DNA of 22,575 bases from Lachnospiraceae bacterium (lineage in GTDB: Bacteria; Bacillota; Clostridia; Lachnospirales; Lachnospiraceae), in contig CAAEAB010000219.1 in NCBI GenBank assembly GCA_900753685.1, forward strand, positions 1 through 22,575, read 5' to 3'. Below are positions 2,706 to 22,575 of this stretch, piece after piece. Below the pieces are notes generated by a model. That model was not told the origin of the DNA, did not search any database, and worked only from the letters and a program-made list of their open reading frames with translations. Within the stretch, counting starts at the first letter, position 1, and each line of letters starts with the position of its first letter. The position numbers and the translations under genes are program-made.

Positions 2706-3713
2706 TTATAACAATATACAATCTTCTTCCTTGAGAGCTAAATAGACATCCGTATTATTTTCGATTAATGTTGCCTTCTTGAACAATACGTCCACATCCA
2801 CCTGCTTATCGCCGCAGAGTACTGCATAACGAAGCACATTACCATGCGGAAGACTGACAGAAACTTTACCCTTCATCGTCAAATAACCTTCTTTTTCTAT
2901 CGGCTGGGTACTGATTTCCACAATTTCCGGACGGAAGGCCACATCCCTGGCAACTGCCTGTTTTCCGGTCAGCTTCCGGAAATCTTCCATCGACATAATA
3001 TTATAATGGCCGATGAAGGTTGCCGCAAATTTGGATAACGGCTGGGTATACATCTGGGTTGGTGCGGCCGACTGTTCAATCTCTCCCTTGTACATCAAGT
3101 GGATAACATCGGACATAACCATTGCCTCATCCTGGTCATGGGTTACAAAAATCGCAGTAATATCCATTTCTTTTTGAATACGACGAATCTCCACCTGAAG
3201 CGAATGGCGAAGCAAAGCATCGATGGCCGACAACGGTTCATCAAGAAGCAATACCTTTGGATGGGTTACCATAGCGCGGGCCAAAGCCGCACGCTGCTGC
3301 TGTCCACCGGACATCTGGGACGGATAATGATGTAAATGATCCGACAAGCCTACGATGTCCACCATCTCTTCCACCCGTTTTGTGATTTCTTCCTTCGGAA
3401 CCTTTTTTAATTTCAAGCCAAAGGCCACATTCTGAGCCACATCCATATTTGGGAAAAGACTGTATTGCTGGAATACCATTCCGATGTCTCTGTCCTTTGG
3501 ATTTACATTCGTAATATCCTTTCCATCAAGATATACCTTACCGGAGGTTACGGTTTCCAGACCGGCCAGACATCGGAGTAATGTACTCTTTCCACAGCCT
3601 GAAGGCCCCAAAAGTGTCACAAGAGACCCCTTCTCCACTTCCAGATCAATATTCTTTAATACTTCATTATTTCCAAAACTCTTACTTATATTTTCAAATC
3701 GAATATATGACAT
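2706..3713 (-). CDS. ABC importer ATP-binding protein (PotA/FbpC-type)
   Basis: A 335-residue ATPase that powers the uptake system encoded just upstream in the same operon. Walker A GPSGCGKST is at 36-44, the Q-loop FQQYSLFP near 81-88, the signature SGGQQQR at 135-141, Walker B LLLDEP at 155-160, the D-loop reads SAID, and the switch histidine is H192 (VTHDQDEA). A C-terminal part from about 240 carries a FRPEIVEI segment typical of a TOBE-type regulatory domain, as in polyamine, iron and phosphonate importers. AAAGGAG precedes the ATG, and the gene starts 14 nt after the second permease stop. It is the last gene of the operon. No strong terminator follows, only an AT-only stem around 2690-2711. 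The substrate cannot be read from the ATPase. Confidence 0.92.
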   Translation of the reverse strand: MSYIRFENISKSFGNNEVLKNIDLEVEKGSLVTLLGPSGCGKSTLLRCLAGLETVTSGKVYLDGKDITNVNPKDRDIGMVFQQYSLFPNMDVAQNVAFGLKLKKVPKEEITKRVEEMVDIVGLSDHLHHYPSQMSGGQQQRAALARAMVTHPKVLLLDEPLSAIDALLRHSLQVEIRRIQKEMDITAIFVTHDQDEAMVMSDVIHLMYKGEIEQSAAPTQMYTQPLSKFAATFIGHYNIMSMEDFRKLTGKQAVARDVAFRPEIVEISTQPIEKEGYLTMKGKVSVSLPHGNVLRYAVLCGDKQVDVDVLFKKATLIENNTDVYLALKEEDCILL

Positions 3714-3727
3714 TTCTCATCACTCCT

Positions 3728-4528
3728 TTACTTTCTCTGCGCTCTGCCCTTGCCCTCCCGGCTTTTCAGGAATAATACGATGGCCGTAATGACAAAGGTT
3801 ACAAACATAATAATTACAAATACGGCGCTGGCCTTTGTGCTGTCGCTCTTCATCGTCTGATAGAGGAAAATCTGCATATTTGGCGCAGAAGTTCCGGCCA
3901 GATTTCGAATCAGGACATAGTCGCCAAAGATAATACCAACGGCCAAAAGTGATGATACAATGATCGCTGAAAGAATATTCGGTACGACAACTCTGAAAAA
4001 AGCATAAATTTTAGATGCTCCGAGCATTTCAGCCGCTTCAATTAATGTGGTCATATTTACCGCTCTCATACCATTGCGGATACCCTGATAAATATACGGC
4101 AATATAACAACACAATAAGCGCCTACCAGCATGACCAGACGATTGCTGAGAATGGATTTTGTTCCTACATAAAGGGACAAAATACTGACAGAAAGAATAA
4201 CTCCCTGAATCGTATATGGAATCATACAGATAATCTGCACATATTTTTCAAGCTTCGGAAAATAAATTGTTGTGACAAACAAAGCCAGTAACACGATGAC
4301 AATCGTCAGTAAGATTGGCACGACGCACCATCCGATGGATCGTCCAACGGAAGCCATAAAGTTCTGGTCTGAAAACAGGGATATGTAGTTGTCAAGCCGA
4401 AAACCCTCAGGCAGTATCTCCGTCCATTTTTTAAATACAGAATAAATAATGGACACAACGAGAGGAATCAACAAATAGATCATGATCAGCAGCATAATCG
4501 CTATAGAACCTGCATTTTTTTTCTTCAT
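3728..4528 (-). CDS. ABC transporter permease (PotC-like)
   Basis: A 266-residue inner-membrane permease of the binding-protein-dependent family. About six hydrophobic segments are visible, starting with IAIMLLIMIYLLIPLVVSII near residues 8-27. The cytoplasmic coupling loop is EAAEMLGASKIYAFFRVVVPNI (about 165-186), which matches the EAA motif that contacts the ATPase. The ATG overlaps the stop of the preceding permease in an ATGA arrangement (4525-4528), so the two are translationally coupled and probably form the transmembrane heterodimer. The partner ATPase starts 14 nt after this gene's stop. The family fits polyamine, Fe(III), thiamine or aminoethylphosphonate importers; the substrate is not determined. 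Confidence 0.9.
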   Translation of the reverse strand: MKKKNAGSIAIMLLIMIYLLIPLVVSIIYSVFKKWTEILPEGFRLDNYISLFSDQNFMASVGRSIGWCVVPILLTIVIVLLALFVTTIYFPKLEKYVQIICMIPYTIQGVILSVSILSLYVGTKSILSNRLVMLVGAYCVVILPYIYQGIRNGMRAVNMTTLIEAAEMLGASKIYAFFRVVVPNILSAIIVSSLLAVGIIFGDYVLIRNLAGTSAPNMQIFLYQTMKSDSTKASAVFVIIMFVTFVITAIVLFLKSREGKGRAQRK

Positions 4529-5376
4529 TTTCTACGTCCTCCCTTCTGGAATTGTCTGCTCAGTCCATTGGTAATCAAAATCATAATCACCATAACTGCC
4601 ATCATTACAACAGAGAGCGCGCCGCCGAGCCCGGCACGTATCTTTACCTCGCCTGTAAAGCATCCGGCAATCTGAACCGGCAGGAGGGCAATATTATCCA
4701 TCATCAACGCATAAATCGTCGCATAGGCTGCCAGAGCGTTTGCAAACAAAACACTGAACGTGCTGAGAATACTTGGCATCAGTACAGGAACTCCGACCTT
4801 CCTCCAAAATACTCCCGGCGTACCACCAAGAAGTGTACAGGCTTCTTTCCACTGCTTCTGCACCCCGTCAAAGGCCGGTATAAGAAGAAGGGTAGATAAC
4901 GGAATCTGAAAATATACATAAATCAGACTCATTCCGTTCATCGTATATAAATTATAATTTGCAAGGAAATCAATGCCGAATTCTTTACCGATACTTACAA
5001 TCAAACCGGCATTGCCTAAAAGAATCATATAAGCGAAAGCCAAGGGAATTCCGGCAAAGTTTGATACCATATTTAATACGGCCATAAATGCATTATTCAA
5101 TTTTCCCTGATGTTGGTGAGCCGCACGTGCCCCAAGAAATGCAATGATAATTCCTATGATGGCCGATGTTAAAGATATTTTCAAGCTGTTAAGAATGGCT
5201 TTCTGATAAAGTAATTTTGAAAACACAGTCTGATAGTTTTCCAGCGTAAAGCCCGTTCCCGAATCCGGCTGGAAGCTCTTGATAATCACCGTAATCAAAG
5301 GTACGATTTCATAAAGCATTGCAACGATCAAGAATGGCACTAACGCAAGTAAATAAATATATGTTTTCTTTTTCAT
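4525..5376 (-). CDS. ABC transporter permease (PotB-like)
   Basis: A 283-residue inner-membrane permease with about six hydrophobic segments, the first at residues 5-30 (LLALVPFLIVAMLYEIVPLI). The EAA-type coupling loop reads EACTLLGGTPGVFWRKVGVPVL (about 178-199). AGGAG stands 10 nt before the ATG. The gene follows the binding-protein gene across a 123-nt gap that contains a large hairpin (5441-5491), and it is coupled to the next permease by a 4-nt ATGA overlap. Together with that permease, the ATPase and the lipoprotein it forms a complete importer. The order binding protein, permease, permease, ATPase differs from the classical potABCD order. Confidence 0.9.
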   Translation of the reverse strand: MKKKTYIYLLALVPFLIVAMLYEIVPLITVIIKSFQPDSGTGFTLENYQTVFSKLLYQKAILNSLKISLTSAIIGIIIAFLGARAAHQHQGKLNNAFMAVLNMVSNFAGIPLAFAYMILLGNAGLIVSIGKEFGIDFLANYNLYTMNGMSLIYVYFQIPLSTLLLIPAFDGVQKQWKEACTLLGGTPGVFWRKVGVPVLMPSILSTFSVLFANALAAYATIYALMMDNIALLPVQIAGCFTGEVKIRAGLGGALSVVMMAVMVIMILITNGLSRQFQKGGRRK

Positions 5377-5440
5377 TCAATTCAACTCCTGTCTGATGCT
5401 ATCTTTTTGTTTACCTGGATGCGCCAGATGATTGCTCTAT

Positions 5441-5491
5441 AATCTGAAAATGGGGGTGCAAGAATTTGCACCCCCATAAATAACTCAGATT
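5441..5491 (-). terminator. Large intra-operon hairpin (attenuator or partial terminator/RNA stabiliser)
   Basis: A perfect 12-bp stem has its arms at 5450-5461 and 5466-5477 (TGGGGGTGCAA with its complement) around a GAAT loop. An outer 7-bp pair, AATCTGA (5441-5447) with TCAGATT (5485-5491), encloses it. On the minus strand it begins 9 nt after the binding-protein stop and is followed only by a short ATTTTC tract. This is the usual place for partial termination or 3' end protection, giving more binding protein than membrane parts. Confidence 0.75.
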
Positions 5492-5499
5492 CTAAATAA

Positions 5500-6657
5500 T
5501 TACTGTACAAGCAACGGAGCGATTTCTTCTTCCCAACGAGTTCTTGCTGTTTCACATGCTGCGGAATAAGCGTCTGCATCATCGATCAGAACAGCGTCTG
5601 CAACGGCGTCTTTACTGATAACCTGGTCTGCATATTCTTCTGCAACTTCAAAATCTTCTCTTGTAGGAATAGCGCCGGCCAGAGCCAGATATGTCTGTCC
5701 TTCATCACTGAACATTACTTCTCTTGTAAGAGCTGCTGCATTTGGATGAGGTGCATATTTGTTAATAACAGACGCATATCCGTTCTGCAGAGAACCATCG
5801 GACGGAACAACTGCCGTCATATTATACTGGGTAATATTTTTGCTGTAAGGAATACCTGTGAAGCTCCATACAACGCCAACTGCGATTTCACCGGATTCAA
5901 AGTTTGCCTGTGTAATATCCAGTGTATTCACTCTTCCTGCTTCAGCCATCTCTGTCCAGAATTCAATCGCTGGCTCAAGATTGTCCATATCGCCGCCAAA
6001 AGCATATGCGGAAGCGATAAATGCAGCCTGAGCATTTGCACCGGTCAGAGGTCCAAGAGCGACTTTATAGTCGCCTTCACGGATATCCTGCCAGGATGTC
6101 GGTACATTTTCAACCTGATCTGTATTTACAAGGAAGGTTGTAACACCTGTATAGGCAACCATCCATTTTCCGTCTTCGCCTTTTGCCCAATCCGGAACGC
6201 TGTCCCAATAGGATGTTTTATATCCCTGAACCAGATCCTCATCAACAGCCTGTCCGGCAAATCCGTAACCAACATCACCCATATCCTTTGTACCGTTTTC
6301 GCCCTCTGTCGCAAACATTTGAAGCTCTTCGGAGGAACTCATATCTGTGTCATTATGTGTGATACCATATGTATCTGACATAGCGTTCCACAGGGAACCC
6401 CAGTCTGCCCATTCATCCGGCATACCAACAGATTCAACATGGCCTTCAGCTTTTGCATTTTCAATGATTTCATCCAGGGTTAAAGAATTCAAATCCCCGG
6501 CGGCATCTCCTGCTGTTGTTTCTACTGATGTCTCTGCACCTGTCTCTGCTGTCGTTTCAGCGGTTGTCTCTGTCTTTCCGCCGCCGCAGCCAACCAGCGC
6601 CAGGCACATTGCTCCAGTCAGGGCAACTGCCAATGATTTCTTAGTCATCTTCTTCAT
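5500..6657 (-). CDS. ABC importer substrate-binding lipoprotein
   Basis: A 385-residue periplasmic-binding-protein-like II protein. The ATG at 6657 is chosen over the longer frame because AGGAGGAG lies right before it and it begins a typical lipoprotein signal: MKKMTKKS, a hydrophobic core, then the lipobox LVGC with the modified cysteine at residue 24. A low-complexity Thr/Glu-rich linker (about 28-55) follows, common in Gram-positive lipoproteins. The mature domain contains EWADWGSLW, DTDMSSSEEL, YKTSYWDSVPDW and AYTGVTTFLVN, which place it among the iron/thiamine/polyamine/phosphonate type of binding proteins. The ligand is not resolved. It is the first gene of the importer operon. Confidence 0.9.
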   Translation of the reverse strand: MKKMTKKSLAVALTGAMCLALVGCGGGKTETTAETTAETGAETSVETTAGDAAGDLNSLTLDEIIENAKAEGHVESVGMPDEWADWGSLWNAMSDTYGITHNDTDMSSSEELQMFATEGENGTKDMGDVGYGFAGQAVDEDLVQGYKTSYWDSVPDWAKGEDGKWMVAYTGVTTFLVNTDQVENVPTSWQDIREGDYKVALGPLTGANAQAAFIASAYAFGGDMDNLEPAIEFWTEMAEAGRVNTLDITQANFESGEIAVGVVWSFTGIPYSKNITQYNMTAVVPSDGSLQNGYASVINKYAPHPNAAALTREVMFSDEGQTYLALAGAIPTREDFEVAEEYADQVISKDAVADAVLIDDADAYSAACETARTRWEEEIAPLLVQ

Positions 6658-6771
6658 AGTTTCTCCTCCTTTTTTACGGGCTGTCTTATTGAGTAAAGTG
6701 CCCTTATAACTATAAAAAGAGCCGAAAGGAATACCTCTTGACATTCTCTCTCCAACTCTACTGTCAAAGTC

Positions 6772-8435: not shown

Positions 8436-9278
8436 TTAATATTTAAAGAATCCTTCGCCGCTCTTTCTTCCGAGCTTACCGCCGCGAACCATCTGTCTCA
8501 TAAGACGGGATGCACGATATTTGGAATCACATGTTTCTGCATAGAAAGTATCCATGATGTGTAAGCATGTATCCAGACCGATCAGATCGCCGAGGGCCAG
8601 AGGTCCCATTGGATGGTTACATCCAAGCTTCATAGATTTATCGATGTCTTCTGCGGAAGCAAGTCCTTCTTCAAGAACGATAGCTGCTTCGTTGATCATC
8701 GGAATAAGGATACGGTTAACAACAAAACCAGGTCCTTCTTTAACTTCTACAGGATCTTTGCCGATTTCTTTGGAGAGCTCATAAACTGTCTCAAAGGTTT
8801 CTCTGGATGTATTTAATCCATTGATAACTTCAACTAATTTCATGACTGTAGCTGGGTTGAAGAAGTGCATACCAATGACTTTATCCTGGCGTTTTGTAGC
8901 GGATGCGATTTCAGTAATGGAAATAGAAGATGTATTTGTTGCTAGGATCGTTTCCGGTTTGCAGATTGCGTCAAGCTTCGCAAACAAATCCTTTTTAATC
9001 TGTACATTTTCAACGATCGCTTCGATCACAAGATCAGCATCTGCTGCAGCATCTAAACTAACAGATGTAGATACGTTCGCCATAATTTCAGCTTTCTTCT
9101 CTTCGGTCATTTTGCCTTTGGAAACCATCTTGTCCAGGCTCTTTGCAAGCTTTCCAACCTGAGTTGCTAAGATTTCTTCGGACATATCATTAAATACTAC
9201 CTGATAGCCTGTTTTAGCTAAAACCTGTCCGATGTCCAGTCCCATCTGCCCTGCACCAACAATAAATACTTTTTTCAT
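8436..9278 (-). CDS. hbd: 3-hydroxybutyryl-CoA dehydrogenase
   Basis: A 280-residue cytosolic enzyme of standard family length that interconverts acetoacetyl-CoA and 3-hydroxybutyryl-CoA with NAD(P)H, a step of butyrate formation. The N-terminal Rossmann motif is VGAGQMGLDIGQ; NTSSISITEIA and GMHFFNPATVMKLVEVI carry the catalytic Ser/His-type residues, and the NRILIPMINEA segment begins the C-terminal dimer domain. AGGAGG is well spaced before the ATG. It stands alone here: thiolase, crotonase, butyryl-CoA dehydrogenase and EtfAB are not neighbours, unlike the compact bcs operon of many butyrate producers. It has its own strong promoter and terminator. Confidence 0.95.
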   Translation of the reverse strand: MKKVFIVGAGQMGLDIGQVLAKTGYQVVFNDMSEEILATQVGKLAKSLDKMVSKGKMTEEKKAEIMANVSTSVSLDAAADADLVIEAIVENVQIKKDLFAKLDAICKPETILATNTSSISITEIASATKRQDKVIGMHFFNPATVMKLVEVINGLNTSRETFETVYELSKEIGKDPVEVKEGPGFVVNRILIPMINEAAIVLEEGLASAEDIDKSMKLGCNHPMGPLALGDLIGLDTCLHIMDTFYAETCDSKYRASRLMRQMVRGGKLGRKSGEGFFKY

Positions 9279-9351
9279 AAGATCCTCCTGCTGTTCATAT
9301 TTTTTATTTTTTAATTATTTGTTTTTGAATGTTACTGTTACGACCAAGTTC

Positions 9352-9380
9352 ATTTTAACTCAATTTGCCCAAAAAGTAAA
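9352..9380 (-). promoter_or_regulatory. hbd promoter
   Basis: On the minus strand, TTTACT (9380-9375), a 17-nt spacer and TAAAAT (9357-9352) form a promoter about 75 nt before the hbd start. It is the twin of the purA promoter in both boxes, in spacing and in the flanking GCTTTACTTTTTG. Confidence 0.72.
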
Positions 9381-9413
9381 GCTGTTCGCAGGATTTTTTT
9401 GTCAATATTCCCC

Positions 9414-9794
9414 TTATTTTATCGCCGCAACAACTTCAATTTCAACGAGAGCGCCCTTTGGAAGAGCGGCAACCTCTACACAGGAACGAGCCGGAGCATC
9501 TCCTGTAAAATATTTTGCATAAATTTCATTGACCGTTCCAAAATCGTCAATGTTGTCTAAAAATACGGTTGTTTTAATGACATCCGAATAAGTCAGGCCG
9601 GCTTCGGCTAAAACTGCGCCGAGATTTTTTAATACTTGTTCGGTTTGGGATACGATTCCTTCAGCCAAAACTCCCGTCTCAGGAATCAGCCCGATCTGTC
9701 CGGATGTAAATACAAGATCACCAACCTTTACCGCATGTACATAAGGTCCCACTGCTGCCGGTGCATTTTTTGCGTTAATAGTTATTTTTGTCAT
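9414..9794 (-). CDS. ridA: RidA family reactive intermediate (enamine/imine) deaminase
   Basis: A 126-residue protein of normal RidA length. ATG 9794 is chosen because GGAGG (9807-9803) lies 8 nt before it; an in-frame ATG at 9809 overlaps that site. RidA trimers hydrolyse reactive 2-aminoacrylate-type enamines released by PLP enzymes. Seen here are GPYVHAVKVGDLVFTSGQIGL, the SQTEQVLKNLGAVLAEAG helix, and ARSCVEVAALPKGALVEIEVVA, which carries the conserved substrate-binding arginine and the late glutamate. It begins 15 nt after the stop of the cysteine-desulfurase-like gene, so the two are one operon. Confidence 0.94.
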   Translation of the reverse strand: MTKITINAKNAPAAVGPYVHAVKVGDLVFTSGQIGLIPETGVLAEGIVSQTEQVLKNLGAVLAEAGLTYSDVIKTTVFLDNIDDFGTVNEIYAKYFTGDAPARSCVEVAALPKGALVEIEVVAAIK

Positions 9795-9809
9795 AGCTTT
9801 TTCCTCCAT

Positions 9810-10967
9810 TTATTCCTTCGGCATCCGCTTAATATCGGAAACCTTGTCACTAGACACAGTCAACTGCCACAAGGCCTGTGTTACCTTATCAATATCCTCT
9901 TCTGTGGTATAATAATTCAATGCAAACCGGGCCGTTCCTCTTGGATAGGTACCCAAAGCCTTATGGGCCTCCGCTGCCTGCTGCAATCCCGAACAGATAA
10001 TAATGCCATACTCCTCTCTGAGAGCTTCTTCCAGTTCCTTTTCTTCCATAAAGTCAACCTGGATTGAAATAACCGGAATACGGTCCTTATAGCCCGGTCC
10101 GATAATACGAACTCCATTCACATGCTGGACCTTGCGGATAAACTGCTCAACCCGCTTCTGGCCTCCCCGACTTAACGTATGCAATGTTTTCTCTTCAATA
10201 AATTCAAAGGCTTTGTGGAGCCCGGCAATAGCGGCAATATCCAGCGGATCCTGTTCAAATTTTTTCCGCATATCTGGGCCGCCGAGAAGAGCCCGCGCCC
10301 GTTCGCTGGCCTGAAAACCGCCGATTTTTTCAGAAGCAAAAAGTCCCCGGCTCCCTGAAAAAGTAAGGACATCCACGCCCCAGATGTTCATAAAAATCGG
10401 CACACAGCCGGCTGTCTGGGCCACATTGACAATCATAAGAAGGCCATGTCTTCTGGCAAATTCGCCAATCTCCTTCACCTGAAGTATCGTTCCCGAAACC
10501 TCCGAGCCGTGATTCACTATAATAGCCTTTGTATTCGGACGGATCAGCTTTTCCAGGGCCTCAAATCCCTTTTCACCCTTTAACGGATCAAAGAAAATAA
10601 GCTGTCCCTTTTCATTGCACGGAATCCGGGTATACTCCACACCGCCGGAAATGCCCTTATCTGTCTCATGACCGATATTCTCCAACGCATTCAGTACGGC
10701 ATCATTTTCCATGGACGAAATAAGTATGTGATCGCCATCTTTAAAAAGTCCTCGAATCACCATATCCAACGCCGCTTCGACGCCCGACGTGAAAACAACC
10801 GATTCCGCTCCCGGTCCATGAAACAGCTTATTTAACTGGTTCCTGGTAGCTTCAACAATATTCTGAAGACTGTCCGCATCCATATTCACCGAAGCAGCCA
10901 TCGCTTCTTCCACCCCCTCAGCCATCGGCTCAAGAACCTCCAGCTGATTCAGATAAATTCTATCCAT
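9810..10967 (-). CDS. Class V aminotransferase/cysteine desulfurase-fold protein lacking catalytic residues (predicted pseudoenzyme)
   Basis: A 385-residue full-length relative of the SufS-like cysteine desulfurases. The fold is clear: FTSGVEAALDMVI (59-71), VNHGSEVSGTIL (151-162), AQTAG (183-187), LTFSGSRGLFASEKIGG (201-217), EEYGIIICSGL (318-328), and HKALGTYPRGTARFALNYYTTEEDID (335-360). The key positions are changed. The PLP lysine of the usual GHKG is R207 (GSRG). The Asp that binds the PLP nitrogen in DAAQ is N181. The ring-stacking His of SMEHN is N88. The catalytic Cys of GLHCA is Q330, and the early NAATT motif is absent. Q184 and R347 remain. AGGAGG precedes the ATG. It is the first gene of an operon with ridA. 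Ordinary desulfurase activity is unlikely; K214, seven residues on, is the only nearby lysine that might substitute. Confidence 0.85.
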   Translation of the reverse strand: MDRIYLNQLEVLEPMAEGVEEAMAASVNMDADSLQNIVEATRNQLNKLFHGPGAESVVFTSGVEAALDMVIRGLFKDGDHILISSMENDAVLNALENIGHETDKGISGGVEYTRIPCNEKGQLIFFDPLKGEKGFEALEKLIRPNTKAIIVNHGSEVSGTILQVKEIGEFARRHGLLMIVNVAQTAGCVPIFMNIWGVDVLTFSGSRGLFASEKIGGFQASERARALLGGPDMRKKFEQDPLDIAAIAGLHKAFEFIEEKTLHTLSRGGQKRVEQFIRKVQHVNGVRIIGPGYKDRIPVISIQVDFMEEKELEEALREEYGIIICSGLQQAAEAHKALGTYPRGTARFALNYYTTEEDIDKVTQALWQLTVSSDKVSDIKRMPKE

Positions 10968-10997
10968 TCAGTTTTTTCCTCCTTCTATCATCAATTT

Positions 10998-11086
10998 CTG
11001 AATTATTTCTCTGAATTATTTCTTATTTTAGCATACTTTCTCTATATTTGATACATAATATCTTTTATAAAATTCGAATTATTTCT
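10998..11086. repeat. Tandem 13-bp repeat plus a third copy in the divergent intergenic region
   Basis: CTGAATTATTTCT occurs twice head-to-tail at 10998-11010 and 11011-11023. An 11-bp copy, GAATTATTTCT, recurs at 11076-11086, just before the ribosome site of the DUF421 gene. All lie in the 136-bp gap between two divergent genes. They may be regulator sites. A TAAAAT near 11034-11039 (minus strand) could be the -10 of the desulfurase-like gene, with a weak -35. Confidence 0.5.
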
Positions 11087-11103
11087 CAAAAAGGAGCGTC
11101 GAC

Positions 11104-11811
11104 ATGCATATTCTTTATATTGTTGTACTTTCCATCGGGTCGATTGTTGAGCTTTTTATTCTGTGTAAGCTCATGGGCTACCGTCAGCTGTCCCAGCTCA
11201 GCATGTTTGACTACATCAACGGTATTACAATTGGCAATATTGCCGCAGAAATGGCCACATCTCTGGACGATAACTTTATAGAACCCCTGGTCGCCATGCT
11301 GATTTATGCCTTTGCCGCCATATTTTTGTCCTGGTGGAGCAGTAAGTCTATAAAAGCCCGACGAATTATTTCAGGCAAGCCGACGGTTCTTTTAAATAAC
11401 GGTCAGCTTTTTGAGAAAAATTTCCGAAAGGCAAAAATTGATCTAAATGAATTTCTGGCCCAATGCCGTATCAGCGGCTATTTTGATATCTCTCAGTTGG
11501 AATCGGCCATTCTGGAAGAAAATGGTCACATCAGCTTTTTGCCGAAAAGCGGAAACCGTCCACTGACCCCCGGCGACATGCAGTTTACGCCGAAAAGAGA
11601 TGCCCTCGTCGCAAATGTGATTATCGATGGCCACATTATGCCAAAAAACTTAAAGGCTTCCGGCAAAGACGAACGATGGCTAGATAATCAGCTGAAAACC
11701 TATGGCATTTCAGATATTAAGGAAGTTTTTCTCGCCACCTGCGATTTAAATCAACAATTCACCGTCTACACCTATACAAAGGACAAAATCCCACCGGACA
11801 TGCTGGCCTAA
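11104..11811 (+). CDS. DUF421 (YetF/YdfR-like) membrane protein
   Basis: A 235-residue inner-membrane protein of the YetF family, whose molecular role is poorly known; some members are linked to spore or stress phenotypes. Three hydrophobic segments are visible in the first ~85 residues (about 3-23, 38-55 and 60-80), with the family motif MGYRQLSQLSMFDYINGITIGNIAAEM between them. After this comes SGKPTVLLNNGQLFEKNFRKAKID and a soluble two-part C-terminal domain (about 90-230). AAAGGAGC precedes the ATG. It is the only + strand gene between 1861 and 17612, and its stop codon overlaps that of the convergent dehydrogenase with no terminator between. Confidence 0.87.
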   Translation: MHILYIVVLSIGSIVELFILCKLMGYRQLSQLSMFDYINGITIGNIAAEMATSLDDNFIEPLVAMLIYAFAAIFLSWWSSKSIKARRIISGKPTVLLNNGQLFEKNFRKAKIDLNEFLAQCRISGYFDISQLESAILEENGHISFLPKSGNRPLTPGDMQFTPKRDALVANVIIDGHIMPKNLKASGKDERWLDNQLKTYGISDIKEVFLATCDLNQQFTVYTYTKDKIPPDMLA

Positions 11812-12791: not shown

Positions 12792-13958
12792 TTAATCCTG
12801 TCGGGCCAAATTTGCTTTTTCAAACCATTCTTTAATCTTCGCTCCATCTCCGGCCAACGTTCCCTGTATCATCTGCGGCGTACCGCCGCCTTTGCCCGCA
12901 TACAACGTCTGTATTTCCTGTCCAAGCTCTTTTGCCTGCTGATCCGCGTCAATCAGAACGTAACGATATCTCCCGCCGTCGCCTTCGGCGAGAACAAGAA
13001 CCCTCCTGGCCCGTTCAGAAAGAAGATTGGCATATTCCCGCAGCTCATTTCCCTCCAGACCATTTTCCAGAACACAAAGCGCCTTTCCTGAAATGGTCAG
13101 ATTTGCCGCCTTTGCGGCCAGCATTTCTTTTTTCATCTGAACCATTTTAAACTTCAAATCGCCGTTTTCTCTTTGAAGCCGCTCAACCGCCTCCGAAATC
13201 TCCCCGGTCTTTGCAGACAGCAAATGGGAAATCTTTACCACACTATCATGCTTTTCTGCATAATCAGTCAGCGCCCGATTGCCTGAAAGCATGGAAATCC
13301 GCACGCCGCCCTTATAATTCTGAACCGACAATATTTTGATCAGGCGGATCTCTCCGGTTCGGAAAGGATGGGTGCCGCAGCAGGCGCATCGGTCATACCC
13401 GGGGATTTCCACAATACGAACCTCCCCGGCCAATTCCTTTTTACTCCGATAGCTCATTACGGCCAGCTCTTTTTGCGGTGGAATCATTGCCCGAATGGGA
13501 ATATTTTCTTCAATGGCCCGGTTGGCCTCCCTTTCAATTTCCCCTACTTGCTCTTCCGTCAGCTCACCGTTAATATCCAGCGTAATCGCTTCGCTGCCCA
13601 TGTGAAATCCCACATTATCATATCCATATTTTCTGTGAATCAGGCCTGAAACAATATGCTCCCCGGCGTGATTCTGCATATTTGAAAAACGAAAATCCCA
13701 GTCCAGCCGGCAATAAACCTTCGTATTTACAGTCAACGGCCTGTCCGCATAATGCCATACCTCCCCATCCTTCTCATGAGTGTTCGATATGACTGCCTCT
13801 CCAATCCACCCCCGGTCTCCCGGCTGGCCGCCGCCCTCCGGGAAAAAGGCGGATTTGTCCAGGCAGATCCGATATGCGTTGTCCTTTTCCTCACACGCCA
13901 TAACCCGGGCGTCAAACTCTCGGATATAAGGATCCCTCTCGTATAATCTATCCGTCAT
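12792..13958 (-). CDS. Alanyl-tRNA editing protein (AlaX-type with DHHA1 domain)
   Basis: A 388-residue stand-alone editing factor related to the AlaRS editing and C-terminal domains. It hydrolyses mischarged Ser- or Gly-tRNA(Ala). The beta-barrel start is FFPEGGGQPGDRG (38-50). The zinc ligands are H97 and H101 in NHAGEHIVSG, with C193 and H197 in CACCGTHPFRTGEI. A coiled-coil helix follows (about 235-280), and a DHHA1-type end carries LYAGKGGGTPQMIQG. This is the long AlaX form, not a truncated AlaRS, because no aminoacylation domain precedes it. GGGGAGG lies before the ATG. It follows rpoN across a hairpin and leads into the dehydrogenase gene. Confidence 0.93.
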   Translation of the reverse strand: MTDRLYERDPYIREFDARVMACEEKDNAYRICLDKSAFFPEGGGQPGDRGWIGEAVISNTHEKDGEVWHYADRPLTVNTKVYCRLDWDFRFSNMQNHAGEHIVSGLIHRKYGYDNVGFHMGSEAITLDINGELTEEQVGEIEREANRAIEENIPIRAMIPPQKELAVMSYRSKKELAGEVRIVEIPGYDRCACCGTHPFRTGEIRLIKILSVQNYKGGVRISMLSGNRALTDYAEKHDSVVKISHLLSAKTGEISEAVERLQRENGDLKFKMVQMKKEMLAAKAANLTISGKALCVLENGLEGNELREYANLLSERARRVLVLAEGDGGRYRYVLIDADQQAKELGQEIQTLYAGKGGGTPQMIQGTLAGDGAKIKEWFEKANLARQD

Positions 13959-17611: not shown

Positions 17612-18502
17612 ATGAATTTTGATTTTTATCGGACCTTTTATTATGTCGGAAAATACCAAAGCATTACCGCGGCAGCCAAAGCGCTCTATGTAACTCAACC
17701 CACTGTTACCCATGCCATCCAGTCACTGGAGCGGGAGCTTGGCTGTTCTTTATTCATCCGCTCTCAGAAGGGCGTCCGTTTTACACCGGAAGGAGAAAAA
17801 TTTTATACCGCGGTTGCTGCCGCCTGTGAAACCATTTTTCAGGCGGAAGCCCGGCTGGAGGCCTCAAAAAATCTTTCAGAGGGCGTCATCGCCATCGGAG
17901 CCAGTGAAACAACACTGCACCATTATCTCATACCAATCCTGGCTGATTTTCGCAAAAAACATCCCGGAATCCATATGAAGCTGTTTAACTCCAGCACCCC
18001 GGAAATGCTCCGGGAAATACTGGACGGACATATCGACTTTGCAGTTCTTGTCATGGACAGTAATTACCGGCATGAAAACTTATCCATCACACATCTCACA
18101 GATTTTGAGGATATTATGATCGGAGGTCAGGCATTTTCTGAATTGAACGGGCGCAGCATTTCTCTAAAAGAATTCATCGATTACCCTCTTGTTTCTATGG
18201 AAAAAGGAACTATGACCCGTCAGTTTTTTGATCAGTTTTTTCATGAGCACAATCTTTTCCCTGAACCGGATATTGAACTGGCGACGACGGACTTAATCGT
18301 TCCGGTGATCCGGGGAGGTCTTGGCATCGGCCTGGTACCTGAACCCTTTGCCAGAGAAGCCCTAGCCCGGGGAGAAATTTTCAATATTACCCTGAAAGAA
18401 AAAATTCCCCGCCGGGAAATCTGCCTTATAAAAAAGAAAAAGGCTTCCCTTTCCCTTATCGGAGAAGCCTTTATTCAATATCTTCTGTCAGATGATCGAT
18501 GA
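17612..18502 (+). CDS. LysR family transcriptional regulator
   Basis: A 296-residue DNA-binding regulator of normal family length. The winged helix-turn-helix covers residues 1-60 (FYYVGKYQSITAAAKALYVTQPTVTHAIQSLE, then GCSLFIRSQKGVRFTPEGE). The effector-binding domain (about 90-290) has IAIGASETTLHHYLIPIL, DGHIDFAVLV and VPVIRGGLGIGLVPEPFA. GAGG precedes the ATG. It is divergent from the MATE exporter, the most likely target together with itself. Its 3' end runs 32 bp into the convergent eutP frame, and the last ~25 codons coincide with the terminator of the microcompartment operon on the other strand. The effector is unknown. Confidence 0.93.
   Translation: MNFDFYRTFYYVGKYQSITAAAKALYVTQPTVTHAIQSLERELGCSLFIRSQKGVRFTPEGEKFYTAVAAACETIFQAEARLEASKNLSEGVIAIGASETTLHHYLIPILADFRKKHPGIHMKLFNSSTPEMLREILDGHIDFAVLVMDSNYRHENLSITHLTDFEDIMIGGQAFSELNGRSISLKEFIDYPLVSMEKGTMTRQFFDQFFHEHNLFPEPDIELATTDLIVPVIRGGLGIGLVPEPFAREALARGEIFNITLKEKIPRREICLIKKKKASLSLIGEAFIQYLLSDDR
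18429..18472 (-). terminator. Terminator of the microcompartment operon, inside the LysR gene 3' end
   Basis: On the minus strand, AAAGGCTTC (18472-18464) pairs perfectly with GAAGCCTTT (18447-18439) across a 16-nt loop and is followed by TTCTTTTTTA. The stem begins within the eutP stop codon. All of it is coding sequence of the convergent LysR gene. Confidence 0.78.
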
Positions 18503-18911
18503 GCTCCTTAATACCCTCGCCGGTCATACTGCATATTTTAAAAATCGGACGGGCGCCGGCCAGAGTCAGACTTCTCTCTGCCCGAATAAGCTGCGCTTCA
18601 TCCCTGATTAGATCGCTCTTTGTGATGACGCCCACCATCGGTTTCTGGAACATGGCCTGAAGTCCCGGCGGCAATGTGAACGTCATGTCTGTCGGGTCCT
18701 GCAAAAGCAGCACCACATCCACCCCCAGGGACGTGACCGCCAAAGCCTGGTAAAACTGGCGCCGTTCCACATATTCCCCCGGTGTGTCAACGATATTATC
18801 CGTCACTTCCAGAGCCTGGGTCTTCTTATATTTAATCGCCTGATTTGTCAGATACTGGCAAAGTGTCGTCTTACCACAGGACACCTTTCCAATGAGCATT
18901 ATTTTTTTCAT
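18471..18911 (-). CDS. eutP: EutP/PduV family microcompartment-associated GTPase-like protein
   Basis: A 146-residue small P-loop protein of normal EutP length. ATG 18911 is chosen because GGGAGG lies 6 nt before it and it opens the family start MKKIMLIGKV; an upstream in-frame extension is not homologous. Motifs are the P-loop GKVSCGKT (8-15), DTPGEY (42-47) and the base-specific TKSD (97-100). EutP has been described as an acetate kinase-like or GTPase accessory of ethanolamine compartments, and PduV as associated with the shell. It is the last gene of the operon, 13 nt after the eutS stop, and ends at a terminator. Confidence 0.9.
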   Translation of the reverse strand: MKKIMLIGKVSCGKTTLCQYLTNQAIKYKKTQALEVTDNIVDTPGEYVERRQFYQALAVTSLGVDVVLLLQDPTDMTFTLPPGLQAMFQKPMVGVITKSDLIRDEAQLIRAERSLTLAGARPIFKICSMTGEGIKELIDHLTEDIE

Positions 18912-18924
18912 GTCAGGCCTCCCA

Positions 18925-19281
18925 TCAGGTCCGGGTAATCTTTGCCGGACTGAATCCGAGAACATCGGACAATGTGTCATTGACCGCAATGAGCGCGGCT
19001 TCCACACTGGAAACATCGCCGCAGATGACCAGGGAACCACTGAAACGATCCACAAAAACAATATCTACTGCGGCCGCCTTCGTCGCCACATCGGCGCCGA
19101 TAATCGCCGCCTCGCTCGGCGTAATGGTCATAATTCCCAAAGCGCCCCGGTTTTCTGTGATGACCCCCAATTTCGCGTACAAATCCTCCTTCGGATTGGC
19201 AATTAAATGGGCCATGGTCGTCTGTTTGCCGGGTACGTATTCCTGGATGACCCGCTGTTTATCTTCAAAAACATTTTCCAC
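18925..19281 (-). CDS. eutS: EutS/PduU-type microcompartment shell protein
   Basis: A circularly permuted BMC-H shell protein of about 118 residues. GTG 19281 is preferred because GAGGTG, which overlaps the previous stop codon, lies 6 nt before it; GTG 19290 directly abuts that site. [21 protein letters not shown] is the N-terminal strand region that forms the small beta-barrel on the hexamer in EutS/PduU. The BMC core follows as [37 protein letters not shown] and [22 protein letters not shown]. It resembles EutS more than PduU by eye. It is a structural facet protein of the compartment, encoded between the PduT-like shell gene and eutP. Confidence 0.92.
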
Positions 19282-19292
19282 GCTGTTCACCT

Positions 19293-19847
19293 CTACATCA
19301 GGCTTTCAAAAATCTCCGGACGAGGACTCGGTATGACAACGCTGGAGACAAGTAAACCATTGTTCTTACCTTCTTCACTTCCGGCCTCCACCGAAGCCTT
19401 CACAGAAGCCACATCCCCAGCCATGACAACAAAGGATTTTCCGCCGAGACCCATACCGAGACGCACGTCGAGGAGGGTTACATTAGCCGCCTTTACCGCC
19501 GCATCGGCGCCGTAAACAGCCGCCGTAATGCTGAAGAATTCCATAACGCCGATGGCTCCTGTGCCATGAAAATCCGTCGCCTGATTGATTGCCTCAACCA
19601 CCTGAGGATGGACTCTTGGAATGACAGTGGAATCCACCACATGGCTCTCACCGACAGCCATTCCCGCATCCAGTGACGCCTTTACCGCCGCAACCTCGCC
19701 TGTAAATAATATACTGTATTTTCCCGGACATACCGGTTTCGCAAAGGTCAGTTCCACCTGGGCAGCCTTTAAAATAGCATCGGCAGCCTCTACACCTTTA
19801 GCAATACTATTCAGCTCAAGAAAACCTACCGTTTCAATCATCGTCAT
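19293..19847 (-). CDS. pduT: PduT-like tandem-BMC (BMC-T) shell protein with Fe-S cysteine
   Basis: A 184-residue protein with two BMC domains in tandem (about 4-90 and 95-180), which forms pseudohexameric trimers in the shell. The motif KPVCPGKY puts a cysteine at the PduT position that binds a [4Fe-4S] cluster at the trimer pore (Cys38 in Pdu numbering). Starting at the second ATG (19841) makes it residue 38 exactly. ATG 19847 overlaps the preceding stop as ATGA with AAAGGA at 7 nt, while ATG 19841 has GGGGAG at 6 nt; both are plausible. It follows the PduS-like gene directly, as expected for an electron relay across the shell. Confidence 0.92.
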
Positions 19848-21196
19848 CTCCCCGTCCTTTCAATGATAATCCGCCCTCCGACGGAAACCACTTTTCCGGA
19901 AATGCTGGCATGGATATTCGCTCCCATGGCTCCCTCCGGAATCCGTGCGATCAACTGGCCTTCTGTCACCTTATCGCCGACTTTCACCACCGGCTCCGAC
20001 GGCGCACCGATATGCATACTGACAGGGATTTCCACCCGCTCCGGGCTTCCTTCCTCACAGGAATCAATCTTCAAATCATACCAGGCTAATACGCCGACGC
20101 GGGCTGCCACCCGGCCCGCCGGAATCTTCCGGCCTTCCCGGTTTCTATCCACTTTATATTCGGCCCCTTCTCTCGTGTAACGAATGCCTGCTTCTCTGAG
20201 GGCGCCTTTGAGCACCTGATTGACCCGTTTCGGCTGCAGACCCATCGGACAAGCATATTCCTCGCAAATACCGCATTCACAGCAGATGGCCGCATTCTGT
20301 ACATCTTTATCATCCAATATCTTTGTCACAGCTTGCGACATAGCAAGCTTACGCATGATTTTATGAGGTTGGAGCGGATGACCGATTAAATGTCTCGGGC
20401 ACATCTGGGTACAATAGCTGCACTGGATACAGGCCGAGCGGGCCCGGTTCAGCATATGCTGCAGGGAAATCTGCGTCTTACGGGCAATGCTGCTATCCTC
20501 CGGCAAAATAAGTATACCGGAAGTCGTTTTAGTCACCACCGCGGCCTTTGCCTCTTCCATCGTCATCCGGGCGCCCATCATCGGTCCGCCGGAAACAACA
20601 AAATATCTGGATTTCAATGCTCCCCCGGCCATTTCAATACAAGTTTCAAAAGAAGTTCCCACAGGCACATGAAGCACCGTCGGCTTTTTCACCTCGCCCG
20701 TCACTGTCAGATATTTTTTCGTAAAAGCTTTGCCTTCCATTGCATCGCTGATACTGAGCATCGTTGCCACATTGGAAACGACGCAGCCCACATCCAGAGG
20801 AATTCCCGCAGGTGGAACAACCCTCCCCGTCACCTCATAAACCATGGTCTGTTCATCCCCTGCCGGATAAAAGCTGTCCATTTTTGCCAGCGTCACTTTA
20901 GAAGCCCGGTCTTTTAACACCTTTTCCAGGGCTTTAATTTCTTCCGTATATGTTTTTTTAAGGGCTATCCGGCATTCCTTCGCGCCGAGCAGCTCGCCGA
21001 CAGCTTCCACCGCGGAAACTACCCGGTCCCCCAGATGCTTCATAATGTATCTGTCAGTACGAAGCAGCGGCTCACACTCAGCACCGTTGATAATGAGATA
21101 TTCCACCGGACCGCCCGCATATTTGACATGCGTCGGAAAGCCGGCGCCTCCGCAGCCGACAATCCCCGCCTCCTTAATGCAATTCAATAAGTCCAT
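19844..21196 (-). CDS. pduS: PduS-like flavin/Fe-S electron transfer protein (RnfC family)
   Basis: A 450-residue RnfC-like protein that is thought to carry electrons from NADH through FMN and two [4Fe-4S] clusters, supporting cobalamin reduction or cofactor recycling in microcompartments. The N-terminal flavin/NADH region has IVGCGGAGFPTHVKY and INGAECEPLLRTDRY (11-50), and an SLBB-type region has TVTGEVKKPTVLHVPVG (164-180). Two ferredoxin-type cysteine sets are C256/259/262/266 and C305 or C306/308/311/316, each ending in CP. The end (about 395-445) is a barrel-sandwich hybrid, VKVGDKVTEGQLIARI. AGGAAG precedes the ATG, and the gene overlaps the PduT-like gene by 4 nt. Confidence 0.93.
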   Translation of the reverse strand: MDLLNCIKEAGIVGCGGAGFPTHVKYAGGPVEYLIINGAECEPLLRTDRYIMKHLGDRVVSAVEAVGELLGAKECRIALKKTYTEEIKALEKVLKDRASKVTLAKMDSFYPAGDEQTMVYEVTGRVVPPAGIPLDVGCVVSNVATMLSISDAMEGKAFTKKYLTVTGEVKKPTVLHVPVGTSFETCIEMAGGALKSRYFVVSGGPMMGARMTMEEAKAAVVTKTTSGILILPEDSSIARKTQISLQHMLNRARSACIQCSYCTQMCPRHLIGHPLQPHKIMRKLAMSQAVTKILDDKDVQNAAICCECGICEEYACPMGLQPKRVNQVLKGALREAGIRYTREGAEYKVDRNREGRKIPAGRVAARVGVLAWYDLKIDSCEEGSPERVEIPVSMHIGAPSEPVVKVGDKVTEGQLIARIPEGAMGANIHASISGKVVSVGGRIIIERTGR

Positions 21197-21200
21197 GGAC

Positions 21201-21485
21201 TCACTTCCTGTTCTTATTTTCTTTCATGATTTCCATAGAATCGATAATGCCCACGATGGCGCTGTCTACCGGAACGCCTTCCTTTCCGGCGGCCCGCCGG
21301 GCCGTACTTCCTGTGACAACAAGAACATCCTCGCCCACACCGGCGCCGACCATATCGGCGGCAACAAAGACTTCCCCTTTCCCCTGGGCCGTCTCCGTCT
21401 CCTTCACAATCATAAGCTTCTGTCCGTTTAAGGCTTCCTGCTTCTTGGTCGCCCATACGTGTCCGATTACTCTGCAAATAAGCAT
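21201..21485 (-). CDS. eutN: EutN/CcmL family pentameric vertex protein
   Basis: A 94-residue BMC-P protein that caps the vertices of the compartment as pentamers. The family start MLICRVIGHVWATKKQEALNGQKLMIV, the middle FVAADMVGAGVGEDVLVVTGSTARRA and the end PVDSAIVGIIDSMEI are all present, and the length is normal. GGGGGA precedes the ATG, 10 nt after the pduL stop, and the PduS-like gene starts 4 nt after its stop, so coupling is tight. Confidence 0.95.
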   Translation of the reverse strand: MLICRVIGHVWATKKQEALNGQKLMIVKETETAQGKGEVFVAADMVGAGVGEDVLVVTGSTARRAAGKEGVPVDSAIVGIIDSMEIMKENKNRK

Positions 21486-21495
21486 ACAAGTCCCC

Positions 21496-22353
21496 CTAAA
21501 GGATTTCTATTTTTTTATGTCCGGCTTTAAAAATGTCCCTTGCGGCCGGAGTGATGATCGTTCCCTTCGCAAAACACAGTGTCCCGCAGGTACAGTCATG
21601 AATCAGCGCCTTCGCCAGCTTTTCCGTCACCAGTTTTTCACGAATGATATCATCCTTACATCCGATATCCGAAATCGGCTCTTCATTCAAAACGGCACAG
21701 ACATTTTTTACCACTTCATTAATTAATTGTTCCATATCCACTGCTGACACCCCCCTATTTTCAGATGGCGCGCCATAAAGGATAAAGGCTTCGGTTCCCA
21801 CCCGATACCCGCAGGCATTGGCCTCGTCGAAGTCAATGTGCATGGCCGGAGCAAATTTCTCGCTGACTCGAATCGGCACATCTTCAAAGATGACCTTCCG
21901 GTCGCTCTCCACCTCTACCCGGACCTTGTCGCCGTCATGGACGCCATATTCCTCCGCATCCTGGGGACGCATATGAATATGATTCCGTGCGACGATGACG
22001 CTCCCATTGGCTTTCATCTCTCCATGGGAACCGATAATCATCACATCCGACGCCCCGTTAAGATTGCCTGACAGGTTGACCGGCGCCGTCAGTCCAAGCT
22101 TTCTGCAGTCCGTCTTGGACAACTCCACCTGGACAGACGACCTCGGCGGTCCGAGAACCGCCACATTTTCCACACAGCCGTCTTTGGTTACCAGCTTCAC
22201 TCTCTGTTCGCTTAAATACTCTCCGGGCTGGGATAAATCCCGTCGTTTTTTCAGGGCCGCCCCCTCACCAAAGAGGGTTTCAATGGCGGCCTGGGTTAAA
22301 TGGACATGGCAGCCGGATGCTTCGATTAAAATCTTCTTTCTCTCTACGCTCAT
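21496..22353 (-). CDS. pduL: PduL-type phosphate acyltransferase with C-terminal extension
   Basis: A 285-residue enzyme that exchanges CoA and phosphate on acetyl- or propionyl-CoA inside microcompartments. The zinc-site histidines are visible in GCHVHLT (H16, H18), RNHIHMRP (H125, H127) and MHIDFDEANACG (H172). The PduL core covers 5-195, near the usual ~210 residues. The extra ~85 residues hold an amphipathic helix (VDMEQLINEVVKNVCAVL, 205-222), a Cys-rich HDCTCGTLC (252-260) and GTIITPAARDIF (264-275), which resembles the N-terminal segment of EutT. ATG 22353 is used; it shares a base with the eutT stop (TGATG) and has GGAGG 9 nt before it. A GTG at 22356 is possible. Confidence 0.93.
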   Translation of the reverse strand: MSVERKKILIEASGCHVHLTQAAIETLFGEGAALKKRRDLSQPGEYLSEQRVKLVTKDGCVENVAVLGPPRSSVQVELSKTDCRKLGLTAPVNLSGNLNGASDVMIIGSHGEMKANGSVIVARNHIHMRPQDAEEYGVHDGDKVRVEVESDRKVIFEDVPIRVSEKFAPAMHIDFDEANACGYRVGTEAFILYGAPSENRGVSAVDMEQLINEVVKNVCAVLNEEPISDIGCKDDIIREKLVTEKLAKALIHDCTCGTLCFAKGTIITPAARDIFKAGHKKIEIL

Positions 22354-22575
22354 CACTTTCTGCCTCCCTCATAATACCCTGCCAGCCACCGGCAAAATAC
22401 AATATAAACGCCGCTGCTCAGACGATTCAAATTCTGAATAATATCCGGCCGCTCTACAACGCCTTCCACCGTCATAAAGGCATGGGCCGCGGAAAGCTCC
22501 ACTTCCCGCACCTTTGCCCGGAGATGGTTTAAGTCCGCCGCCATCCGCCCCATTGTATAGTCGGGAATCGGATGG
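22353..22575 (-). CDS. eutT: EutT-type ATP:cob(I)alamin adenosyltransferase, C-terminal end (cut by window edge)
   Basis: The last ~73 codons of a gene that continues beyond the window. The visible sequence DLNHLRAKVREVELSAAHAF followed by VERPDIIQNLNRLSSGVYIVF matches the C-terminal helices of EutT (the LLRTKVRETE and RPDILQALNRLSSTVYVM segments of the enteric protein). EutT makes adenosylcobalamin for ethanolamine ammonia-lyase. The frame is open to the window edge, so the internal ATG at 22553 is not the start. Its stop overlaps the pduL start, so the two genes are translationally coupled. It is the best single marker that this is an ethanolamine-type or other B12-dependent compartment. 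Confidence 0.87.
   Translation of the reverse strand, partial: HPIPDYTMGRMAADLNHLRAKVREVELSAAHAFMTVEGVVERPDIIQNLNRLSSGVYIVFCRWLAGYYEGGRK

Follow-up and report, generated by a model that had tools for sequence, protein, structure and literature searches.

Results

A desulfurase homologue without its catalytic residues

The window, that is, the whole stretch of 22,575 nucleotides analyzed here (contig CAAEAB010000219.1 of a Lachnospiraceae bacterium), carries on its reverse strand a gene for a 385-residue protein, named pCD in this work, which fits the PLP fold type I / aminotransferase class V superfamily (PF00266) by profile and by fold. The nearest sequence families and fold are those of the TIGR01977 (EF2568-type) proteins and of SclA (NF040779), but its scores of 221.4 and 209.4 bits are far under the respective cut-offs of 377 and 525; the Frisingicoccus caecimuris copy (L001) reached 218.0 bits against TIGR01977. 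The features of the locus are listed below. Column statistics come from non-redundant alignment rows, 33 of the pCD clade and 45 of active enzymes, and the columns are named by their role in desulfurases (PLP lysine, PLP aspartate, stacking histidine, catalytic cysteine and phosphate Thr64).

9414..9794 (-), RidA, next gene downstream of pCD (the ORF could begin at 9809), from ORF and synteny
9810..10967 (-), pCD (name coined here), predicted PLP-free pseudo-desulfurase, 385 aa
9813..9824 (-), C-terminal MPKE, invariant in 46/46 full-length clade proteins, disordered in the structure model
9978..9980 (-), codon of Q330, catalytic Cys column (C in 45/45 active and 0/33 clade rows)
10053..10148 (-), residues 274-305, holding 10 of 18 newly invariant columns (clade versus active alignment)
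10347..10349 (-), codon of R207, Schiff-base Lys column (K in 45/45 active and 0/33 clade rows)
10425..10427 (-), codon of N181, PLP Asp column (D in 45/45 active rows, N in 33/33 clade rows)
10704..10706 (-), codon of N88, PLP-stacking His column (H in 45/45 active and 0/33 clade rows)
10968..11103 (no strand), intergenic region, putative former site of yqeC-mocA; its F. caecimuris counterpart precedes yqeC
10978..10984 (-), pCD ribosome-binding site AAGGAGG, from sequence

An earlier note on this DNA had read the gene as a 385-aa cysteine-desulfurase homologue in which the lysine, aspartate, histidine and cysteine were replaced by R207, N181, N88 and Q330. All four residue calls were correct, and the alignment of clade and active rows placed them in the expected columns and extended the losses to the whole clade. 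At the Schiff-base Lys column the clade rows carry Y (26), H (3), R (2) or N (2), and at the catalytic Cys column the commonest residue is G (22/33). The Schiff-base Lys and persulfide Cys of TIGR01977 proteins are both present in 45/45 active rows, and neither occurs in any clade row (0/33). Nor does pCD belong with the Lys-less IscS proteins of the Archaeoglobus fulgidus type, which keep the Cys, as this residue is gone in 33/33 rows. The alignment columns also rule out K214 as a replacement Schiff-base lysine: the window lysines kept in at least 90% of the clade rows are those at 76, 120, 147, 165, 279, 336 and 384, none of them at the Schiff-base column. A sequencing or assembly artefact can be dismissed, since the losses are common to P0001 (a 99% identical cluster) and P0002 (92%), the latter with R, not Q, at 330. 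Judging from these residues, it is very likely that pCD can neither hold PLP in the usual way nor form a persulfide.

Extent and boundaries of the pseudoenzyme clade

Some 5.8 billion proteins were searched, the 7997 candidates with most shared words being scored, and 52 clusters were retrieved before identity fell to about 34%; of these, 46 are of full length, while 6 are partial or chimeric. A profile search, with roughly 8,000 most-word-sharing candidates scored, arrived at these 52 again. Among full-length members the lowest score was 603 bits; partial members reached 376-559 and the first outsider 277. Homologues altered at these positions, of the kind which the earlier note had proposed to look for, exist as a clade in which the PLP lysine is absent from 52/52 clusters, its column being R, N, Y or H.

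A single-sequence scan of genome contigs brought up no relative, and an alignment-based scan detected three loci, in Frisingicoccus caecimuris DSM 28559 (L001, genome G001), a Frisingicoccus MAG (L002, G002) and a Clostridia MAG (L003, G003). Scores at clade level (>600 bits) were restricted to 3/98 relatives and to 1/397 genomes drawn from the family, a sample whose rows do not include G002 and G003. The best score outside the clade in these scans was 297.7 bits, from an intact enzyme (L065); the out-of-clade check took only ORFs containing GHK, and such an ORF was present in 9/9 loci given.

In a quick tree of 88 rows, calculated without bootstrap and with several long branches flagged, the clade forms one side of a single branch with SH-aLRT support of 100 and a stem of 1.03 changes per column. 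Its neighbors are intact enzymes, P0053 (support 84) and L007/L020 (support 96). Those few clade members with a source name (P0011, P0023, P0041, P0044 and P0046) are labeled PLP-dependent enzyme or selenocysteine lyase/cysteine desulfurase, which is probably wrong. Within the open-licence papers searched we recognized no description of a pseudo-desulfurase clade of this kind or of its operon context. Pseudo-desulfurases as such are already known, so that the novelty, within the searches made, lies in this clade and its context.

Residues lost and gained across the clade

The losses exceed those listed in the earlier note, reaching Thr64, His206, Asn156 and the AAT, R-G-x-H and Gly-Thr motifs. 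Thr64 is found in 0/33 clade against 44/45 active rows and His206 in 0/33 against 45/45; Asn156, present in 45/45 active rows, is Glu or Asp in 32/33 clade rows, and Asn89, likewise kept in all 45, is Asp in 33/33. The AAT motif (residues 9-11) is mostly gone, a deletion removes the R-G-x-H Arg from 33/33 clade rows, and T241 of the Gly-Thr loop has become Pro in 26/33, with Thr surviving in 3/33. In desulfurase structures, these R-G-x-H and Gly-Thr segments project into the site of the partner subunit. Arg347, which we take to be the substrate-carboxylate Arg, is retained in 33/33 clade and 45/45 active rows. In comparison with EF2568 and SclA, pCD is without the phosphate-ligand residues and without the Lys, Asp, His and Cys, and it carries the MPKE tail.

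Besides these losses, 18 columns that vary in the active enzymes reach an invariance of at least 97% within the clade. Ten of them lie between residues 274 and 305 (E274, R278, K279, Q281, H282, P291, G292, Y293, R296 and D305). The MPKE ending, also present on the genome copies L001, L002 and L003, is confined to the pCD clade among the proteins compared: 0/54 active homologues tested (P0053-P0106) end in PKE. In the structure model of pCD, residues 376-385 have pLDDT values below 50, and a tail predicted to be disordered and yet conserved suggests a binding motif.

Selection on pCD

The NG86 dN/dS of the window pCD versus the L001 copy was 0.106 (dS 1.35), within a range of 0.032-0.115 obtained for seven neighboring genes compared between these two sequences; values were returned for 5/6 pCD pairs and are rough, as a dS of at least 1.35 is near saturation. 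The frame, start, ribosome site and MPKE tail are all intact, and 1/81 near-invariant columns of the clade is changed in the window copy (F350L), where the 34 rows compared range from 0 to 6. In relative-rate tests against L001 the window side showed an excess with 2/5 outgroups (chi-square 4.13 and 4.12), as did P0003 against L001, also with 2/5; no significant excess was observed for the window against P0003 or P0008, with five outgroups each. The window gene is perhaps under slightly eased constraint.

That the gene is a selected pseudoenzyme and not a decaying gene, as had been proposed from the sequence alone, is supported by the shared losses, the SH-aLRT 100 branch and the dN/dS of about 0.11, to which the single changed conserved column, the newly invariant columns and the invariant MPKE now add. 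For the clade as a whole, the dN/dS, MPKE, conserved-column and invariance data rule out decay. Taken together, pCD is almost certainly a selected, PLP-free pseudoenzyme.

Operon context in relatives

In F. caecimuris (L001) the gene order is yqeC, yqeB, xdhB, Fe-S subunit, xdhA, mocA, pCD, xdhC, ridA. L003 has this order plus a permease, a MoeA-like gene and a MOSC gene, the genes between pCD and RidA being permease, MoeA-like gene, xdhC and MOSC gene; L002, a 4.7-kb contig that opens inside xdhA, has the order xdhA-mocA-pCD. The end of mocA overlaps the start of pCD by 1, 4 and 14 bases in the three relatives. L001 YqeC passes TIGR03172 (162.3, cut-off 73) and L001 YqeB passes TIGR03309 (359, cut-off 220); the yqeB of L003 (G003) also passes TIGR03309, and its yqeC is 51% identical to that of L001. 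The search for yqeB in G002 was negative; in that genome the contig with pCD starts within xdhA. The XdhA, XdhB, Fe-S, MocA and XdhC matches fall under curated cut-offs, with 279.4 of the required 830 for the selenium-dependent xanthine dehydrogenase model. The L001/L003 hydroxylase is a putative selenium-containing enzyme.

In the congener G004, mocA of a similar operon is not followed by pCD; in G005 the contig breaks off within xdhA. No clade-level pCD match was found in either genome. Since G004 carries the operon without pCD, and pCD occurs in 3/98 relatives against 24/98 with yqeB over the cut-off, pCD is a lineage-specific addition which is not required for every such operon. At L057 and L058 a selD-like gene lies beside the molybdenum-hydroxylase operon, at the position of a DUF421 gene in L001 and L003.

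Probable loss of the operon at the window locus

When the reverse-complemented window is compared with L001, the match block ends at the start of yqeC and resumes 13 bases before the start of pCD, then runs on through the pCD stop and from RidA onward; 28 window bases in the intergenic gap are unmatched. The six genes from yqeC to mocA are absent from the window locus, yqeB and yqeC included, and so is xdhC, which in L001 lies between pCD and RidA. The operon sits at the same place in L001 and L003, and in G005 and G004 a match to 2-hydroxyacid dehydrogenase is close to it (a partial match at the region's edge in the latter); for this reason we infer its loss at this locus in the window's lineage as the simpler reading. 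The window pCD is now a solitary gene that has a ribosome site of its own and follows sequence which in L001 precedes yqeC. A promoter scan of positions 9200-11200 gave consensus matches little above those of shuffled sequence. A function tied to RidA is disfavored, as other genes intervene between the two in L001 and L003.

The earlier reading of the gene's function had been made without sight of this loss. Left without the operon at its locus, the window pCD may have another role or may be a recent leftover.

Intact homologues and ancestry

SelD and an intact TIGR01977 homologue were each found over cut-off in 3/3 pCD-carrying genomes. The intact homologues L007, L008, L009, L010 and L020 score 381-463 bits against TIGR01977, and those of G003 (L008) and G001 (L009) are preceded by a YedF-like gene and selD. 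Intact-looking homologues were also present at 15/27 loci of genomes without pCD (3 of the others were mis-picked ORFs and 9 gave no ORF).

We compared six 20-kb regions (L050-L055) around enzymes of the type nearest the clade, and in 4/6 a selD-like, YedF-like or YeeE-type transporter match lies nearby: selD-like and YeeE-type matches in G002 and G058, with a short YedF-like match as well in G002; YeeE-type and short YedF-like matches in G004; and selD-, YedF-, yqeB-, yqeC- and mocA-like matches in G029 (L050). The reference genes were all missing from the G037 and G040 regions (L052 and L053). On account of these selenium-gene neighbors, the ancestor of the clade was probably, though not certainly, a desulfurase of selenium metabolism.

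Four IscS-like proteins (P0117-P0120) have N-D in place of H-K and retain the stacking His, the PLP Asp and the Cys; similar in this to A. fulgidus IscS, they form a Lys-less group of their own. Matches to a desulfurase homologue in G305 (C31:11439-12587) and G245 (C86:2674-3867) run over two and one TGA codons, respectively, and may just run past a stop.

Discussion

Several known systems resemble pCD in part. Excerpts of two reports describe EF_2568 as "probably a selenocysteine lyase", in an Enterococcus faecalis cluster where its neighbors are SelD (EF2567) and the MobA-related EF2569 (PMC2276186, PMC2432076). The IscS of A. fulgidus and IscS1 of Methanosarcina acetivorans are likewise desulfurase homologues without the catalytic lysine and, in the passages concerned, the former is proposed to act as a ligand and not as a sulfur donor, giving a Cys ligand to the IscU cluster (PMC7585200). 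These Lys-less IscS proteins, as there described, indicate that desulfurase folds can serve without desulfuration. In contrast to A. fulgidus IscS, the pCD clade has also lost the catalytic Cys, which disfavors a similar Fe-S scaffold, and the neighbors of pCD in the relatives are molybdenum-hydroxylase genes. Of the roles left open by the earlier note, the operon of the relatives favors one in molybdenum-hydroxylase maturation, probably with a link to selenium, and not in Fe-S assembly.

Closer to such a role is the NifS4-XdhC pair of Rhodobacter capsulatus, in which, as excerpted, active NifS4 binds to XdhC and provides the molybdenum cofactor that XdhC holds with its sulfur (PMC2997495). 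As proposed here for pCD, a desulfurase fold works with XdhC, in that case in xanthine dehydrogenase maturation, whereas the pCD clade would be incapable, by known chemistry, of the persulfide formation of NifS4. With regard to the selenium-dependent SDMH operon (yqeB/yqeC), a 2024 study calls the selenium modification of molybdenum hydroxylases "the least understood mechanism", and its passages report that deletion of yqeB in Clostridioides difficile impairs growth on xanthine and on uric acid, while deletion of yqeC has no visible effect (PMC11448449). The yqeB genes of G001 and G003 and the yqeC of L001 pass the corresponding models, and this operon is missing at the window locus; the consulted literature passages on yqeB/yqeC make no mention of a pseudo-desulfurase.

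The explanation we prefer, to which we give a probability of about one half, is that pCD serves (seleno)molybdenum-cofactor maturation in the relatives as a docking protein without catalysis, and is orphaned in the window. A desulfurase or selenocysteine lyase of the TIGR01977 superfamily would have been neofunctionalised into a pseudoenzyme whose desulfurase-like body, 274-305 stretch and MPKE tail might bind the cofactor handlers MocA, XdhC and YqeB. It would thereby guide a selenium or sulfur donor, either SelD/YedF or an intact desulfurase whose gene lies elsewhere, to the molybdenum cofactor. The desulfurase shape without the chemistry, the overlap with mocA and the position of xdhC as the next gene in L001 point to the docking half of a NifS4-XdhC-like arrangement; the anatomy of the mocA-pCD arrangement is observed, and docking is what we infer from it. 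In the window lineage, the operon genes would have been lost on either side, leaving an intact pCD behind the former operon's upstream region. Against this explanation speak the absence of pCD after mocA in the similar G004 operon, the negative search for yqeB in G002, the scores of the L001/L003 hydroxylase subunits, MocA and XdhC under curated cut-offs, the persistence of the window copy without the operon at its locus, and the lack in the window of H329 and Y207, which are kept in 27/33 and 26/33 clade rows.

The last two points bear on whether the window copy still has work to do. It might be a leftover, jobless since the operon was lost and starting to drift, its low dN/dS predating the loss. 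We regard this as unlikely, albeit worth serious attention: the absence of the operon speaks for it, as do the rate excess on the window side against L001 with 2/5 outgroups and the GSR and lost H329 seen in the window and in the relatives closest to it, P0001 and P0002, against GGY and H in most of the clade; yet the frame, start, ribosome site and MPKE have stayed intact with 1/81 conserved columns changed, no rate excess appears against P0003 or P0008, P0003 itself runs ahead of L001 with 2/5 outgroups, and the losses on both flanks spared exactly pCD. A reading which includes the move of pCD to another pathway in the window lineage after the operon loss seems to us quite improbable.

Other alternatives concern the clade as a whole. 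That the emptied pocket binds a new ligand, for instance a pterin cofactor or an amino acid, so that pCD is a carrier or an enzyme with new chemistry, would agree with the changes N89D and D181N in 33/33 rows, N156 to E/D in 32/33 and R347 kept in 33/33, which make the pocket look re-tailored and not merely emptied. We nevertheless consider it very doubtful, given that pocket positions 64, 88 and 330 vary freely and that residue 207 of the window differs from the commonest Tyr. Serine palmitoyltransferase has a Lys-less subunit and provides the model for a further possibility, a heterodimer in which pCD regulates or retargets an intact TIGR01977 paralogue. The two have the same fold and co-occur in 3/3 genomes, but the loss of the cross-subunit motifs, with T241 changed to P in 26/33 rows (T in 3/33) and the R-G-x-H Arg deleted in 33/33, argues against a helper half of an active heterodimer, and intact-looking homologues also occur without pCD; this possibility, too, strikes us as very doubtful.

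If the preferred docking role is correct, a PLP-free look-alike overlapping mocA separates scaffolding from catalysis and offers a testable handle on the selenium/sulfur step. The clade also illustrates well how an enzyme evolves into a pseudoenzyme: it is set off by one branch with good support, its nearest relatives are intact, and nature has supplied a probable loss of the operon.

Other genes of the window

A microcompartment cluster at 18471-22356 (-) comprises a PduV/EutP-like GTPase, two BMC-domain shell proteins, an RnfC/PduS-like electron carrier, EutN and a PduL-type phosphotransacylase. ABC transporter genes occupy 2706-6744, with a binding protein weakly similar to the 2-aminoethylphosphonate-binding PhnS (43.9 bits, cut-off 395), and a CobD-like/HisC-like PLP enzyme at 731-1861 scores just under the CobD cut-off (274.7 versus 290.55). 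At 12792-13958 there is a stand-alone AlaX-like alanyl-tRNA editing protein, 388 aa long, whose end resembles DHHA1.
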